DNA of 61,214 bases from an uncultured Bacteroidia bacterium (lineage in GTDB: Bacteria; Bacteroidota; Bacteroidia; J057; CALAJH01), in contig CALAJH010000039.1 in assembly GCA_937922655.1 (NCBI GenBank), forward strand, positions 1 through 61,214, in the 5' to 3' direction. Every line of letters starts with the position of its first letter. The stretch's first letter is position 1. Under the pieces are notes generated by a model. That model did not search any database. It saw nothing but the letters and a program-made list of their open reading frames with translations, and was not told where the DNA came from. This document shows, piece after piece, positions 3,538-53,333 of this stretch. A program made the translations under genes and the position numbers.

Positions 3538-5175
3538 ATGACAAGAACGACGGCGGCGGTGTGCATGGTCTTGATGCTCATCGGATGGGCGCACGGACAG
3601 GTAACGTTGAACGCGGGCGATTTGCCCCAAGCGGGTTCAAGGGCGCTTTTCAGCCGGGCAACGGGCTTGGGAAACTTTAACCCCGAAAGCACCGGCCCCA
3701 ACCAAACGTGGGATTTCCGCAGCCTAACCCCAAGTTCCCAAATCGAACAAAACTACGTCGCGGGATTGACCACGCCTTACGCCTTTTTCTTTGCCCAAAA
3801 CTTCGGCGTCGAGGACGCCAACCTCGGGTTTTTGAGCCAGCTGGGCGCCATCCCCGTCGGTGGATTCAACGTTGCCTTGGACAACCCCTATTTATTCTTC
3901 TCCAAGAACGCCACGCGTTATGCGGCCGTCGGACGCGGCGTAACCATCAACGGCTTTCCGGCGCCGTTTTTTTACACCGACCCCGACGAAATCTATCATT
4001 TTCCCATGACCTACCAGCGCCAAGACGCCTCCACCTTCCGGTTCAACGTCCAGATTCCGACGTTTAACGGCGGTTATCGAAGCGCGGGTACGCGCAATTC
4101 GACCGTCGACGGTTGGGGTACGGTCGCCACGCCAACGGGGACTTATCCCTGTTTGCGTCTAAAATCGGTGGTGGTTTTCAGGGACACGCTCGACGTTCCC
4201 GAAGGTTTGCCCCTGCCCATACCCTTTCCTTTGCCCATCACCCAAATCCCGCTGACGTACACGCGCACCGAGTACACGTGGCTGGCGCCGGGCGAGGGCG
4301 TTCCCATCGCGCAGGTGAACGTTGTTTCCGCGTTTCAGTTCCAACTTCCTTTGCCGATTATTCCGAGTTTTGGCGGATTTACGGAGGTATTGTGGCGGGA
4401 CGTGGACCGTAGGCCCGTGGCGGCGTTTTCCACCCTAGGGTCATTGACGGGGTGCACGCCGCTGACGGTCAAGTTCGTCAACGAATCCTTGCGCGGCGAA
4501 ACGTATCGTTGGAGTTTCGGCGACGGGCGCACGTCCGTCGACCCCAACCCGACCTACGTTTACACGCGCCCCGGGGATTTTTCGGTAACCCTGACGGTAA
4601 CCAACGCCTTTGGTACGGATTCGTTGCGCAAGGTACGCTTGGTGCGTGCGGACGGGGTGGTACCAGCCTTTAAGGCCGAACGCACCTCGGCGCCGCTCGA
4701 AGATGCGCGCATCAAGTTCGCCAACCAAACCACGGGCCCCCAAAACCTTTCCTACCTCTGGGACTTTGGCGACGGTTTTTTAAGCGTTGAAAAAACGCCG
4801 ACGCATTATTATCGTTACCCCGGCGTGTACACCGTGAGCCTGACCGCCGTTACGGCCTCGGGGTGCGAAGGCGAAGCGGTCAAAAAGGATTACATTTCCA
4901 TCGGCACGACGGGCCGGCACGATGCGTCTTTGGTTTCCACGTTGTTCGCTTATCCAAATCCTTCGTACGGCGACATGACGGTCGAATACGCTTTGACACA
5001 AGGGGGCAAAGCGGAATTTACGCTTTACGACCTTGCGGGACGCAGGGTGTGGACGGCCCAAAGTCCCGAACGCGCGGGAACCATCGCCGTTCCCCGTCCC
5101 GAAAACCCGGGCCTTTATCTTTTGGAACTTCGCCAAAACGGCGCCGCGGTACGATTAAAAGCCTTGTGGCATTGA
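3538..5175 (+). CDS. Secreted PKD-domain protein with T9SS sorting domain
   Basis: The 545-residue protein has a clear signal peptide (TAAVCMVLMLIGWAHG-Q, residues 1-20), an N-terminal region of about 270 residues that I do not recognise, two PKD domains (about 290-370 and 376-455) and a type A T9SS C-terminal domain from about 468 with YPNPSYGDM and the ending GLYLLELRQNG. Each PKD domain has the hallmark WSFGDG or WDFGDG and a Y..PG.(Y/F)(S/T)V turn. PKD domains are usually binding or spacer modules of surface proteins; the substrate is unknown. The protein is expected to cross the outer membrane by T9SS, lose its C-terminal domain and be released or anchored to the surface. The HEAT-repeat gene follows 19 nt downstream. 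Confidence 0.9.
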   Translation: MTRTTAAVCMVLMLIGWAHGQVTLNAGDLPQAGSRALFSRATGLGNFNPESTGPNQTWDFRSLTPSSQIEQNYVAGLTTPYAFFFAQNFGVEDANLGFLSQLGAIPVGGFNVALDNPYLFFSKNATRYAAVGRGVTINGFPAPFFYTDPDEIYHFPMTYQRQDASTFRFNVQIPTFNGGYRSAGTRNSTVDGWGTVATPTGTYPCLRLKSVVVFRDTLDVPEGLPLPIPFPLPITQIPLTYTRTEYTWLAPGEGVPIAQVNVVSAFQFQLPLPIIPSFGGFTEVLWRDVDRRPVAAFSTLGSLTGCTPLTVKFVNESLRGETYRWSFGDGRTSVDPNPTYVYTRPGDFSVTLTVTNAFGTDSLRKVRLVRADGVVPAFKAERTSAPLEDARIKFANQTTGPQNLSYLWDFGDGFLSVEKTPTHYYRYPGVYTVSLTAVTASGCEGEAVKKDYISIGTTGRHDASLVSTLFAYPNPSYGDMTVEYALTQGGKAEFTLYDLAGRRVWTAQSPERAGTIAVPRPENPGLYLLELRQNGAAVRLKALWH

Positions 5176-5194: not shown

Positions 5195-7291
5195 ATGACG
5201 AACGACGCTTTTTTGCTGTTCTTATGGGGAATTATCGCGTTTCTGACGGGAGGGCTGACGGAGTTTGTGGTCACGGGTATCGACGGCGGGAAACGGGCCA
5301 AAAATTATCGCCGAAAAATCGCCCAATGGATGCGCTACCGCATCCAACGCCGGGGACGGCGCGGGCGGGGGGTGAATTGGGTGTTTTCTCCCGTGCGTCG
5401 GCTTCGCACGACGTTTTCGTTGATTTCCATCCCGTTTTGGATGAGCGTCGCGGGCTTTGTTGTCAATTATTTGAGTACAACGACGTACATCCCCGGCGCT
5501 CCGGCGTCGGGGTTTTTATTGTTGGCGGTGGGAGGTTGGCTGGCGCATATGGGCATGCGTGCGCTGACGGTGCGCGACAGCTCGGACTTGGAGGCCGAAT
5601 GCGTCTACGCGGCCTTGACCACGCCCGCCGGCACGCCCGAACGTTTTTTGCAGTTTTTCGCCCATCCGGAATTGGATTTTCGGTTTGCGGGCTTGCGGGC
5701 GTGGTCGGAACGTAGGGTCGGGTCGGCAAGTCTCCAAGCCCGCGCCGCCGAGGTCGCCGTGGGCTTTTTGTCCGACAAATCGTTTGAACGTCGCAAGCTT
5801 GCCTACGAATTTTTATACCGACACGCCCCCGGGGTGTTAAAAGAAAAATTGGGTCGGGTTTTGGAACATCCCGTGGCCGAGGTGCGCAAACACGCGCTTG
5901 AATACATCCGCGTGCTTTCGCCGGCGGAAAGAACGGCCGCTTTAAAGTCGCGTTTGAGCGACGTCAAAGCCGACGTGGCCGCCGCCGCCGCAAAACTCCT
6001 CAACGAACAACCGAAAAACATCGAAGAATATTTGAGCGATTTGCGCGAGGGTTCGATACCCTTGCGGATATTGGCGGCCGAATATTTTGCGCAACATCCC
6101 GATGCACGGGCGTTCGAGGGCTTGGCGGCGCTATTGAAGTTCGACGACTGGAAGGCGCGTCGGGCGGCGGCGGCGGCCTTGGGCCGCATGGAAGATGCGC
6201 AAGCCGAGACGGCGCTGTCGGCGTTTTGCGCCGACGTACAAAGCTACGCCGCCAACGAAGCCACGCAACGACGCGAGGCCTACCTCGAAGCCGTGCAAGG
6301 TTTGCGCAACCACGTTTTTACGGGCGGGCAAAGGCCAACGACGACAACGGTGCGGGGTTTGGTGCGATTGGTCGGCGACGACGACCCCAAAGTCGCCAAA
6401 GCGGCCGCCGCCGCCCTAAGGGAAATGCAACAAACCGAGGCGTTGGTGCAAACGTTCGAAACCGGCGGCCCCGCCGTTCGGGAAATTGTGTTGCTGACGC
6501 TCGCCGATTCGACGGACGAGGCCTTACTTCCGATATTCCGCAAAGGCTTGGAATCGCCCGACTCGAACGTCGTCAAGGCGGCGGCGACGGCCATCGGCCA
6601 TAGTCCCTACGTCGAAGACGCTCTCGCCCTCCTTCCCCTGCTCAAACACAACGATACAAGCGTGGTCTATGCGGCCGTAAACGCATTGGGAAAAATAGGC
6701 GCCTTGCCGACGTTGGCGGCTTTGTCCGAACTTGTGCAAAAAACGCAAACGCTCATGCGTCGTTCGACGGCCTACGCCGATGCCGGCGAATCGAAAAAAA
6801 ATTTCACCCTCCTTTACAACAAAGCCCGAGACGCCATTCGACGCATCATCCAAAAACAATCCGCGCTACCCGCCTACCCCGTCGAAAAATTTTATTGTCG
6901 AAAATGTTTCAGTCGTTTTCGGAAAAGCATCGCCGAAACGTGGGAATACATCGAGTGCAAACGCTGCCGCGACGACCGCCACCACCTCGTCCCCGTAGAC
7001 AAAATCGTCGGCTTTATCGGCGACGCTTATGGAACCGGTTACAAAGCGGGAGAGTTTTATATTGGTTTATGGGATGAAAAATCAAAATCGACCGTCGACG
7101 CCGAAATCGACGAAATGATCATAGTCGGCGGCGGCTCCGTCTCTTACGATTGGGCGGTGAGCGCCGTACTCCAAAAACTTCAAGAATCGGGGCAAAACGT
7201 ACCGGTAAAGCTTGTCGGCCCGCCGCGATTAACGGCCAACACCCAAGCCATGCTTCGCGATTATTGTCCCGCCGTCTTTGCGCCGGAATAA
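5195..7291 (+). CDS. Membrane-anchored HEAT-repeat protein with zinc ribbon and unknown C-terminal domain
   Basis: This 698-residue protein has three hydrophobic helices in its first 125 residues (about 5-27, 76-95 and 102-121), separated by a very basic loop (RIQRRGRRGRG). A long alpha-helical region from about 140 to 540 shows HEAT-repeat wording again and again (DVKADVAAAAAKLL, DDPKVAKAAAAALREM, DSNVVKAAATAIG). Cys568/Cys571 and Cys588/Cys591 then form a CxxC-x16-CxxC zinc-ribbon candidate, with His596/His597 close by. The last about 100 residues (IDEMIIVGGGSVSYDW, VPVKLVGPPRLTANTQ) look like a small alpha/beta domain that I do not recognise. I infer a membrane-tethered scaffold with its HEAT array on the cytoplasmic side; no enzymatic motif is visible. 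It lies between a secreted PKD protein and a histidine kinase on the same strand. Confidence 0.75.
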   Translation: MTNDAFLLFLWGIIAFLTGGLTEFVVTGIDGGKRAKNYRRKIAQWMRYRIQRRGRRGRGVNWVFSPVRRLRTTFSLISIPFWMSVAGFVVNYLSTTTYIPGAPASGFLLLAVGGWLAHMGMRALTVRDSSDLEAECVYAALTTPAGTPERFLQFFAHPELDFRFAGLRAWSERRVGSASLQARAAEVAVGFLSDKSFERRKLAYEFLYRHAPGVLKEKLGRVLEHPVAEVRKHALEYIRVLSPAERTAALKSRLSDVKADVAAAAAKLLNEQPKNIEEYLSDLREGSIPLRILAAEYFAQHPDARAFEGLAALLKFDDWKARRAAAAALGRMEDAQAETALSAFCADVQSYAANEATQRREAYLEAVQGLRNHVFTGGQRPTTTTVRGLVRLVGDDDPKVAKAAAAALREMQQTEALVQTFETGGPAVREIVLLTLADSTDEALLPIFRKGLESPDSNVVKAAATAIGHSPYVEDALALLPLLKHNDTSVVYAAVNALGKIGALPTLAALSELVQKTQTLMRRSTAYADAGESKKNFTLLYNKARDAIRRIIQKQSALPAYPVEKFYCRKCFSRFRKSIAETWEYIECKRCRDDRHHLVPVDKIVGFIGDAYGTGYKAGEFYIGLWDEKSKSTVDAEIDEMIIVGGGSVSYDWAVSAVLQKLQESGQNVPVKLVGPPRLTANTQAMLRDYCPAVFAPE

Positions 7292-7379: not shown

Positions 7380-9908
7380 ATGAACGATTGGCGTTCGTTT
7401 ACACGGCCTTGGATTTCGTTCGCACTCGAACGATGTTATTTTCTTGTTCTTTTTTTTATCTACACGGCAAGCGTAAACGCACAATTTCTTATTAAAGAAA
7501 AAGTTTTGAACGACGAGGAACTTTTGAAGCTCAAAAAAGAAATCAAGCGTTCGTCGGGAAGACAAAAATTCGACAAATTGGTGCGTTTGACCTATCATTT
7601 AACCCTTCGGGTCGACGCCGACACCGCCGAATTGAACGAGTACGTAAAAGAAGCGGAGCGGACGGTCAAATCCTTGGGCGACGACCCCTATCTCGAAATA
7701 CGTTTGGATTGGATGCGGACGTTCGGAAATCCGGAAAAATTTAAGCAATTGGCTTCGAAAATCATTCGTTTCTACGAAAACTCCGACCCTCGGCGCAACC
7801 AACGCGAAGACACGCTCATCTATGCGGCGGTACTGCATTCGTTGGGCCAATACTATTCTGCCCTGCAACAACCGGAATCGTTGAAAGAAAGCGCTCGTTA
7901 TCATTACAAGGCGTTGCATTTATACGAGGCCCTTGGGGATTCGAGCTGGATTAAACACCAGTACGGAACGCTGGGAGCGGTTCACTTAATAACACACAAT
8001 TACGAAGACGCGGTAAGATATACACTCGCCGCGATTCGATACGGCGAGCGCACGGAAGAAGAACGCTCGGCCAACTTATCTTTGCGCAACAACTTGGCTT
8101 TGATGTATTTTGGCCAAAAAAAGTTTCGCGAGGCTTTGGAAACGTTCGAGTACGTCGCCAAAGAGTACCGCAACCTCAACCGAAACTACTTGCACGACGT
8201 GAACGTCGTCGTAGGAGCGACGCAGTTCATGGTCAACGCGTCAATGGCCGCAATGAACCTTGGGGATACGGCCCTGCTTTCCGAAAACATCCGTGATTTG
8301 CGCCAATGGCTCGACGAACATCCTTCCGACTATTATTCGGCTTATTTGACGTTATTTGAAATGGGCGAGGCGTTTTTGCGCAACGACGACGCCCTCGGGG
8401 AACGCAAGTATCGTGCGTTGAAAGAAATCTTGCCCAAGGCAAAGGCGTGGCGTGCGGCCGGCGTCGCGGACATGGTGATGGGAAAACATGCGATGAAAAA
8501 TCGGCAATTTCAACCCGCCGCCCGCGCTTTTCAATCCGCCCTTTCCCATCCCGAATTGCCCTTAAAAATCTATCTCGAACAAATCTATCGCGGCGCCGCC
8601 GACGCCTATTACGCCCTGCAACGCTACGATTCGGCGTATTATTTTATTCGTCAAGAAATGATTTTACGCGACTCCATCGCCAAAATAGCCGACGAATACC
8701 GCGGCATGGAGTTGTTGCACCGTTACCAAAGCGACGCCCTCAAAGAATCTTTGCGAAACGCGACGTTGGAAAATCAAAGACATCGCTTTGAAAAACGATG
8801 GGCTTGGGGAACGGCGATATTTATCGGTTTTGTAGTGTTGGTGTTGGCTCCGGTGTTGTGGAAGCTTTGGAAGACGCAAAAACGAGTCAAACGCATCAAT
8901 CTACGGGTAAGAAAGCACAACGAAACGATAACACGGCAAAAAAAAGAAATACAAATTCACGCCGAAGCTTTGCAATCGGCGCTTGAAGCCAAAGACCGTT
9001 TGGACAAATTCAAGGAAAACATGATGCAACTCGTCGTTCACGACCTTAAAAGCCCGCTCAACGTCGTGCTGGGCTTCGCGGAAATGTCCAGCGACGAAAC
9101 GACGAAAAGATATGTATCCGCTGCGGGGCAAAAAATGCTGACGTTGGTGCTGACGCTGCTCGACGTTTCCAAGTTTGAATCCGATTCGCTCAAACCGCAT
9201 TTGACGAACGTTGCTTTGGGCGACATGATTGCTTCGGCGCGGGAACACATCTTTCTCGAACTCGAAACCAAACAAATCCGGTTTGAGACGACGGGGCCGA
9301 ACGTCGTCGTCCGGGCCGACAAACAATTGTTGTATCGTATTTTGGTCAATTTGTTCACGAACGCGGTGAAATACACGCCGCCGGGTGGAAAAATTACGGT
9401 CGATGTCGAGGTCGAAGGCGAACGCGTCGGGGTCTCGGTTTCGGACACGGGGCCGGGCATCCCCGAAGAGTTTTTGCCGCAACTTTTCGACCGGTTTACA
9501 ACGGGCGGAAAAAATTTGGGACGCACGCCTTCGACGGGCTTGGGATTGTATTTTTGCAAGCTGACCGTCGAAGCGCACGGGGGAAAGATTCGGGCGCTGT
9601 CGCGCGTAGGCGAGGGTACGACGTTCACTTTCGATTTGGAACTTGTTTCCGTAAACGAAAAAGCAATGGTCGATGCCGAAAAAACCATGGGGGAAAAGCC
9701 GCCGTTGAGTCCGGAAATCGTCAAAACGCTCGAGCCGTTTTTGGAAAAGTTGATGCGCATGGAGGTTTACGAAACGACGCAAATCTTGGCGGTCGTGGAC
9801 GAAATACCGCCGGACGGTGCGGAAATCGAGCGTTGGAAAAGCGAGGTGCGCAACGCGGTTTTCAACTGCAACGCCGAGGCTTACACCCGATTGGTGAAGA
9901 TGGGTTAA
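7380..9908 (+). CDS. TPR sensor histidine kinase
   Basis: This 842-residue protein starts at the ATG at 7380 (MNDWRSFTRPW), giving a signal sequence that ends near SVNAQ; an upstream in-frame ATG at 7278 overlaps the HEAT gene and is less likely. Residues about 40-460 form a periplasmic helical region with TPR-like repeats. A transmembrane helix (about 473-496) leads into a basic coiled coil, a HisKA domain with phospho-acceptor His554 in VVHDLKSPLN, and a HATPase domain with N box (NLFTNAVKYTPPGG), G1 (DTGPGIP), F box and G2 (GLGLYFCK). A tail of about 90 residues follows the ATPase and resembles the helical C-termini of Bacteroidota TPR kinases. It should autophosphorylate and pass phosphate to a response regulator, but none is encoded nearby, so partner and signal are unknown. 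Confidence 0.9.
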   Translation: MNDWRSFTRPWISFALERCYFLVLFFIYTASVNAQFLIKEKVLNDEELLKLKKEIKRSSGRQKFDKLVRLTYHLTLRVDADTAELNEYVKEAERTVKSLGDDPYLEIRLDWMRTFGNPEKFKQLASKIIRFYENSDPRRNQREDTLIYAAVLHSLGQYYSALQQPESLKESARYHYKALHLYEALGDSSWIKHQYGTLGAVHLITHNYEDAVRYTLAAIRYGERTEEERSANLSLRNNLALMYFGQKKFREALETFEYVAKEYRNLNRNYLHDVNVVVGATQFMVNASMAAMNLGDTALLSENIRDLRQWLDEHPSDYYSAYLTLFEMGEAFLRNDDALGERKYRALKEILPKAKAWRAAGVADMVMGKHAMKNRQFQPAARAFQSALSHPELPLKIYLEQIYRGAADAYYALQRYDSAYYFIRQEMILRDSIAKIADEYRGMELLHRYQSDALKESLRNATLENQRHRFEKRWAWGTAIFIGFVVLVLAPVLWKLWKTQKRVKRINLRVRKHNETITRQKKEIQIHAEALQSALEAKDRLDKFKENMMQLVVHDLKSPLNVVLGFAEMSSDETTKRYVSAAGQKMLTLVLTLLDVSKFESDSLKPHLTNVALGDMIASAREHIFLELETKQIRFETTGPNVVVRADKQLLYRILVNLFTNAVKYTPPGGKITVDVEVEGERVGVSVSDTGPGIPEEFLPQLFDRFTTGGKNLGRTPSTGLGLYFCKLTVEAHGGKIRALSRVGEGTTFTFDLELVSVNEKAMVDAEKTMGEKPPLSPEIVKTLEPFLEKLMRMEVYETTQILAVVDEIPPDGAEIERWKSEVRNAVFNCNAEAYTRLVKMG

Positions 9909-52894: not shown

Positions 52895-53240
52895 AACGAG
52901 CGGGCCGTGCCGTCGCCGGCGGCCGGAGGCCGTCGGAGGAAAGTCCGGACAACACAGGGCGCCCCGCTTTCCGAAAGGAAAGGCGCGACGGAGGGAAACC
53001 CCGCGCGACGGAAAGTGCCACAGAAAACAGACCGCCCTTAGGGGCAAGGGTGAAAACGTGCGGTAAGAGCGCACGGCCCGGCGCGGCGACGCGGCGGGCG
53101 GTAAACCCCGGGGGTTGCAAGACCGTGTATACCGGCGTCGGCCTCGAGCCGAAGCGAACGGCCCGTTCGCCGCCGGGGGGTGGGTCGCTTAGAGAAATGA
53201 CGGCGAAGACAGAATCCGGCTTATTGCGGTCCCGCTCGTT
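52895..53240 (+). ncRNA. rnpB: RNase P RNA, bacterial type A
   Basis: RNase P RNA is the catalytic part of the ribozyme that removes 5' leaders from tRNA precursors. All the conserved regions are present in order: GAGGAAAGTCCGGAC (from 52936), ACAGAAA...AGACCGCC, AAGGGTGAAA, GTGCGGTAAGAGCGCAC, GTAAACCCC and, near the 3' end, AGAATCCGGCTTAT. The ends are set by helix P1: 52895-52904 (AACGAGCGGG) pairs perfectly with 53231-53240 (CCCGCTCGTT). The length of about 346 nt fits type A. The 3' strand of P1 runs into a T-rich tract (TTTTTGTTTTTT to about 53250) that should end transcription. I could not find a convincing promoter box upstream. It converges with the GMC oxidoreductase gene. Confidence 0.95.
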
Positions 53241-53333
53241 TTTGTTTTTTGCGCCTCTTCATCCCCGACTTTCGTGCCTCGAAAACAGCTTTACAACAAT
53301 AAAACGTTCTCCATCGCTCCTTTCTCCAAACGT

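Follow-up and report, generated by a model that had tools for sequence, protein, structure and literature searches.

The window, i.e., the whole stretch of DNA analyzed here (61,214 nucleotides of contig CALAJH010000039.1 from an uncultured Bacteroidia bacterium), contains a gene for a HEAT-repeat protein located between genes for a PKD-repeat protein and a TPR histidine kinase. As presented in Table 1, the three genes lie on the same strand. The T9SS sorting domain of the PKD neighbour was recognized at 6.4e-9, which would agree with a Bacteroidota lineage. Upstream of these genes, we observed a membrane protein gene (positions 1810-2727, + strand) without any Pfam or NCBIfam match above cut-off; its product presumably resembles BatD, and we take its flanking genes to be GatA-like and BirA-like. 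With Rfam, a single match in the window reached the gathering score, a bacterial class A RNase P RNA (positions 52897-53242, + strand, 190.7 bits).

Table 1. The HEAT-repeat gene, its parts and its two neighbours, in window positions.
Feature	Positions	Strand	Basis or remark
PKD-repeat protein with T9SS sorting domain	3538..5175	+	stop 19 bases before HEAT start; association not established
HEAT-repeat gene, 698 aa, ATG start	5195..7291	+	open reading frame
N-terminal membrane part, residues 1-125	5195..5569	+	hydropathy, loop charge count, low-confidence model
HEAT repeats, residues 130-555, ~425 residues	5582..6859	+	Pfam, structure comparison
Ribbon CxxC-x16-CxxC, residues 568-591	6896..6967	+	C568, C571, C588, C591
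C-terminal domain, ~88 residues, 603-690	7001..7264	+	12 columns invariant in three sequences
TPR histidine kinase	7380..9908	+	starts 88 bases after HEAT gene; association not supported

The layout given for the HEAT protein in a preliminary description of this DNA was largely right, and both phrases quoted there are present in the 698-residue frame, at residues 642 and 671. Among the three membrane helices proposed, two hydrophobic segments (residues 8-26 and 72-90) passed the hydropathy cut of 1.6 over 19 residues. By contrast, the third region (about residues 104-123) is weaker, with a best window of only 1.44, and appears as a helix in the low-confidence model. The loop at residues 28-71 is very basic as claimed, with 16 K+R vs 1 D+E. 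The expected 400 or so residues of HEAT repeats were confirmed by matches to Pfam HEAT_2 (PF13646; 4.1e-24 over 5 stretches, 85.1 bits for a cut-off of 27.7) and HEAT (PF02985; 6.5e-16, 57.4 bits for a cut-off of 23.5). By sequence, the closest solved relatives of this region are designed alphaRep proteins (a fusion protein at 6.7e-21 and alphaReps at 1.5e-20). The single-sequence model of the HEAT part also aligned best with alphaReps (Z 19.1, rmsd 5.1, 215 residues), the full-length model, at a mean pLDDT of 52.7, being usable for this part only. Across the 21 remaining genomes of the order, including G017, the one that carries a homolog of the protein, residues 1-555 had no hit at E 1e-5.

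After the repeats, the protein carries the two CxxC knuckles of a zinc ribbon, with all four cysteines of the announced CxxC-x16-CxxC spacing located, and zinc binding is predicted only. The C-terminal domain had been described as belonging to no recognized family, and the Pfam, NCBIfam, PHROG and PADLOC libraries provided no convincing match. Indeed, the tail gave nothing over the curated cut-offs of Pfam or NCBIfam and marginal PHROG matches only, and the tail alone had no PADLOC match up to E 1. The preliminary description was prepared to give up its view if a well-characterized domain matched the C-terminal residues, and none did. Four weak candidates were set aside: UPF0515 for the tail (0.066), NTP_transf_6 on the G017 tail (0.0054, below cut-off and absent from the listings for the other two proteins), Imm30 on the G017 protein (0.0017, below cut-off) and phrog_1244, of unknown function, around the ribbon (0.011 here and 0.0079 in G017). 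The single-sequence model of the tail (mean pLDDT 45.7) predicts, with low confidence, the order two strands, helix, strand, helix. A Foldseek search with this model returned 0/483 matches at E 0.001 (best E 0.73), a result uninformative on fold novelty. Among the 12 invariant columns, D639 is the only acidic residue, and Lys, Arg, Glu, His, Cys, Ser and Thr are all absent; therefore no conserved catalytic set was seen in the tail, although invariant columns are weak evidence when drawn from three tail sequences only.

We then considered the relatives of the tail. Searching with a 141-residue query yielded one match at 6.7e-12 in G017, within a similarly laid out protein, and a second place in the genome of origin, a paralog on contig C38 (7.7e-6). 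Reciprocally, the G017 tail recovered the window gene at 3.4e-11; at 0.001 it did not recover the paralog. For the C-terminal domain, the alignment scores were 87 against G017 (shuffle maximum 57) and 106 against the paralog (shuffle maximum 51), neither being reached by any of 2000 shuffles, and 46 between G017 and the paralog, a narrow margin over the maximum of 45 in 2000 shuffles. These alignments show that the tail is a genuine module, conserved by homology and reused in two architectures. The G017 protein (640 aa) shows three hydrophobic segments, a HEAT-like region whose HEAT_2 match of 22.9 bits is under the Pfam cut-off of 27.7, a CxxC-x17-CxxC ribbon and the C-terminal domain. In the paralog (335 aa), a single hydrophobic segment exceeds the cut and another peaks at 1.25; Pfam gives no HEAT match at E 10, and the C-terminal domain is present. 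Cysteine conservation, also put forward beforehand as a touchstone, held in part: the G017 homolog retains all four residues, but in the paralog only the first CxxC survives as such, the second half of its ribbon being changed. Since the second CxxC was lost there, the ribbon may be dispensable. Toward their N-termini, the three proteins had no detectable similarity, with 1346, 1536 and 173 of 2000 shuffles reaching the observed scores. In addition, the TTG start codon of the paralog is preceded, at a distance of 59 bases, by the end of a 37-residue open reading frame with one hydrophobic stretch (locus L006, 8901-9014, on C38). This frame may encode a small membrane protein of its own or else represent the genuine N-terminus of the paralog, lost by a frame change.

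The tail is rare, being present in 2 of the 22 genomes of the order. Profile searches matched 2/395 genomes of the class and, at E 0.1, 11/395 genomes of the phylum, where the match was convincing in the genome of origin only. The 2/395 obtained among the genomes of relatives is not independent, as that sample is seemingly largely the same draw as that of the class; overall, the draws overlap. In another class, 0/294 genomes matched, in a search run without a positive control. With a profile built on three sequences, distant relatives can have been missed. Pattern searches matched 10 and 53 stretches in two rounds on genome contigs and 71 on viral contigs, none of them confirmed, and tblastn against plasmids and phages gave no match. 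Ten weak loci from the phylum were judged to be chance matches, seven being re-found as partial alignments without ribbon and domain together and three not at all. The same judgement was made for seven further weak loci (L022-L028), four of them re-found, including L028, which passed the whole-sequence threshold (0.00098 under the Z of that search) only because four short stretches were added up, the strongest of them at 1.3. In a literature search by titles and abstract openings, we found no paper describing this architecture. Since the tail was found in two other proteins only, the gene is a modest lead and not a new kind of system.

We give about an even chance to the reading of the HEAT protein as a membrane-tethered cytoplasmic adaptor with the tail as a binding module. 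This reading is drawn from the basic loop, the protein-binding HEAT solenoid and a tail without a conserved catalytic set. The N-terminal helices would anchor the protein in the inner membrane. Basic loops are cytoplasmic under the positive-inside rule, and because the loop is strongly basic, both it and what follows the third helix, i.e., everything after residue 125, are suggested to be on the cytoplasmic side. HEAT solenoids bind proteins, as established for the family, and this one would bind one partner, whereas the ribbon and C-terminal domain would bind a second. This second partner may be shared with the paralog, in which the same tail occurs without recognized HEAT repeats. We infer that a complex may be assembled at the membrane, as the preliminary description had suggested. 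The adaptor reading is supported by the HEAT repeats, found by both profile and fold comparison, the G017 counterpart, the paralog, whose tail comes without a Pfam HEAT match, and the basic loop beside hydrophobic segments. Against it stand the dissimilar N-terminal parts, the lack of hits for residues 1-555 elsewhere in the order, the subthreshold HEAT match of G017, the number of tails (three only) and the missing second CxxC of the paralog. The ribbon-linked C-terminal domain could, with equal chances for and against, be an undescribed small alpha/beta domain that membrane proteins of one order use as a portable binding module, in one case following HEAT repeats and in the other lacking them. 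If so, the catalogue would gain a small domain restricted to one lineage, together with a membrane HEAT architecture, and the paralog pair, with and without HEAT repeats, would allow one to ask what the tail binds.

An envelope unit, in which the HEAT protein would be a cytoplasmic export or sensing scaffold acting with the secreted PKD protein and possibly the histidine kinase, is unlikely, and the earlier proposal of a unit with both neighbours was mostly unsupported. Three points argue for it: the PKD and HEAT genes are 19 bases apart, the paralog also adjoins a PKD-repeat gene in the same orientation, and six other window proteins scanned for PKD gave no match at 0.001. The gene next to the paralog (L006, 10129-12492, on C38; PKD_4 at 2.3e-44) begins about 80 bases downstream of it and runs off the contig. 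However, the order is reversed, the PKD gene being upstream of the HEAT gene and downstream of the paralog, and the match between the two PKD genes is confined to the repeats. Two such PKD-adjacent cases do not establish a unit. Moreover, in the surroundings of the G017 homolog and of the paralog, neither the kinase nor the N-terminal part of the PKD protein was detected. The G017 homolog has other neighbours than the window gene, and the relative of the PKD N-terminal part in that genome is on another contig; a weak PKD match, which speaks for some link, was seen about 6.4 kb past the homolog, in an open reading frame beginning about 4.8 kb downstream. Relatives of this N-terminal part occur in 18 of the 22 genomes of the order, and at the three places examined, each read over 12-16 kb, the HEAT, kinase, BirA, GatA and BatD-like proteins had no detected relative at E 1e-4.

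The most specific rival is a KH-like nucleic-acid binder, in which the ribbon and a KH-like domain would hold RNA, DNA or a transcription factor at the membrane; we consider it quite improbable. A GxxG loop is the motif of KH domains of the NusA type. The best PDB match of the tail profile was NusA (E 0.071), with the GxxG loop aligned with the domain start, and the motif occurs as GFIG in the HEAT protein and as GVVG in the paralog. However, E-values of 0.071 and 0.32 are at chance level, G017 carries GLIS instead, so that the motif is in 2/3 sequences, and the low-confidence order of elements was not matched to KH. Finally, a role in defence, in which the HEAT repeats and ribbon would sense and the tail would be the effector, is very improbable: the PADLOC models HEAT-ARM_XIII (1.4e-9) and HEAT_CxxC_PDDEXK (0.0076) matched and the distribution is patchy, but both matches are confined to the HEAT repeats, the invariant columns hold no nuclease motif, and the neighbouring genes listed for the window include no recognized defence gene.

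The understanding of known systems is unchanged by the finding of this protein. HEAT_CxxC_PDDEXK shares with it the HEAT repeats and, going by the name of the model, a CxxC motif, but the match covers residues 435-514 only and leaves the nuclease part unmatched. PD-(D/E)xK is the nuclease motif expected of that model, and in the C-terminal domain a single acidic residue and no lysine are invariant, as far as three sequences can tell. HEAT proteins of the PBS-lyase type, NblB and CpcE, matched weakly over the HEAT region (7e-10 and 1.6e-6); membership was rejected, since the scores of 38.8 and 27.8 bits are far below the curated cut-offs of 300 and 330, and the membrane part and ribbon were unmatched. 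In the vWA-MoxR-beta-propeller ternary systems, the third component has a membrane-spanning segment in its variable N-terminal region and typically carries TPR and beta-propeller regions (eLife 2020, PMC7159879). The membrane-spanning segment so described is the likeness to the HEAT protein, which differs in having neither TPR nor beta-propeller by Pfam; a bpX1 search found nothing in the genome of origin, yet its control likewise matched 0/14 genomes. With HEAT repeat proteins in general, the protein shares residues 130-555, above the Pfam cut-offs of both HEAT families, and it differs from them by a membrane part, a ribbon and a C-terminal domain that lie outside PF13646 and PF02985.
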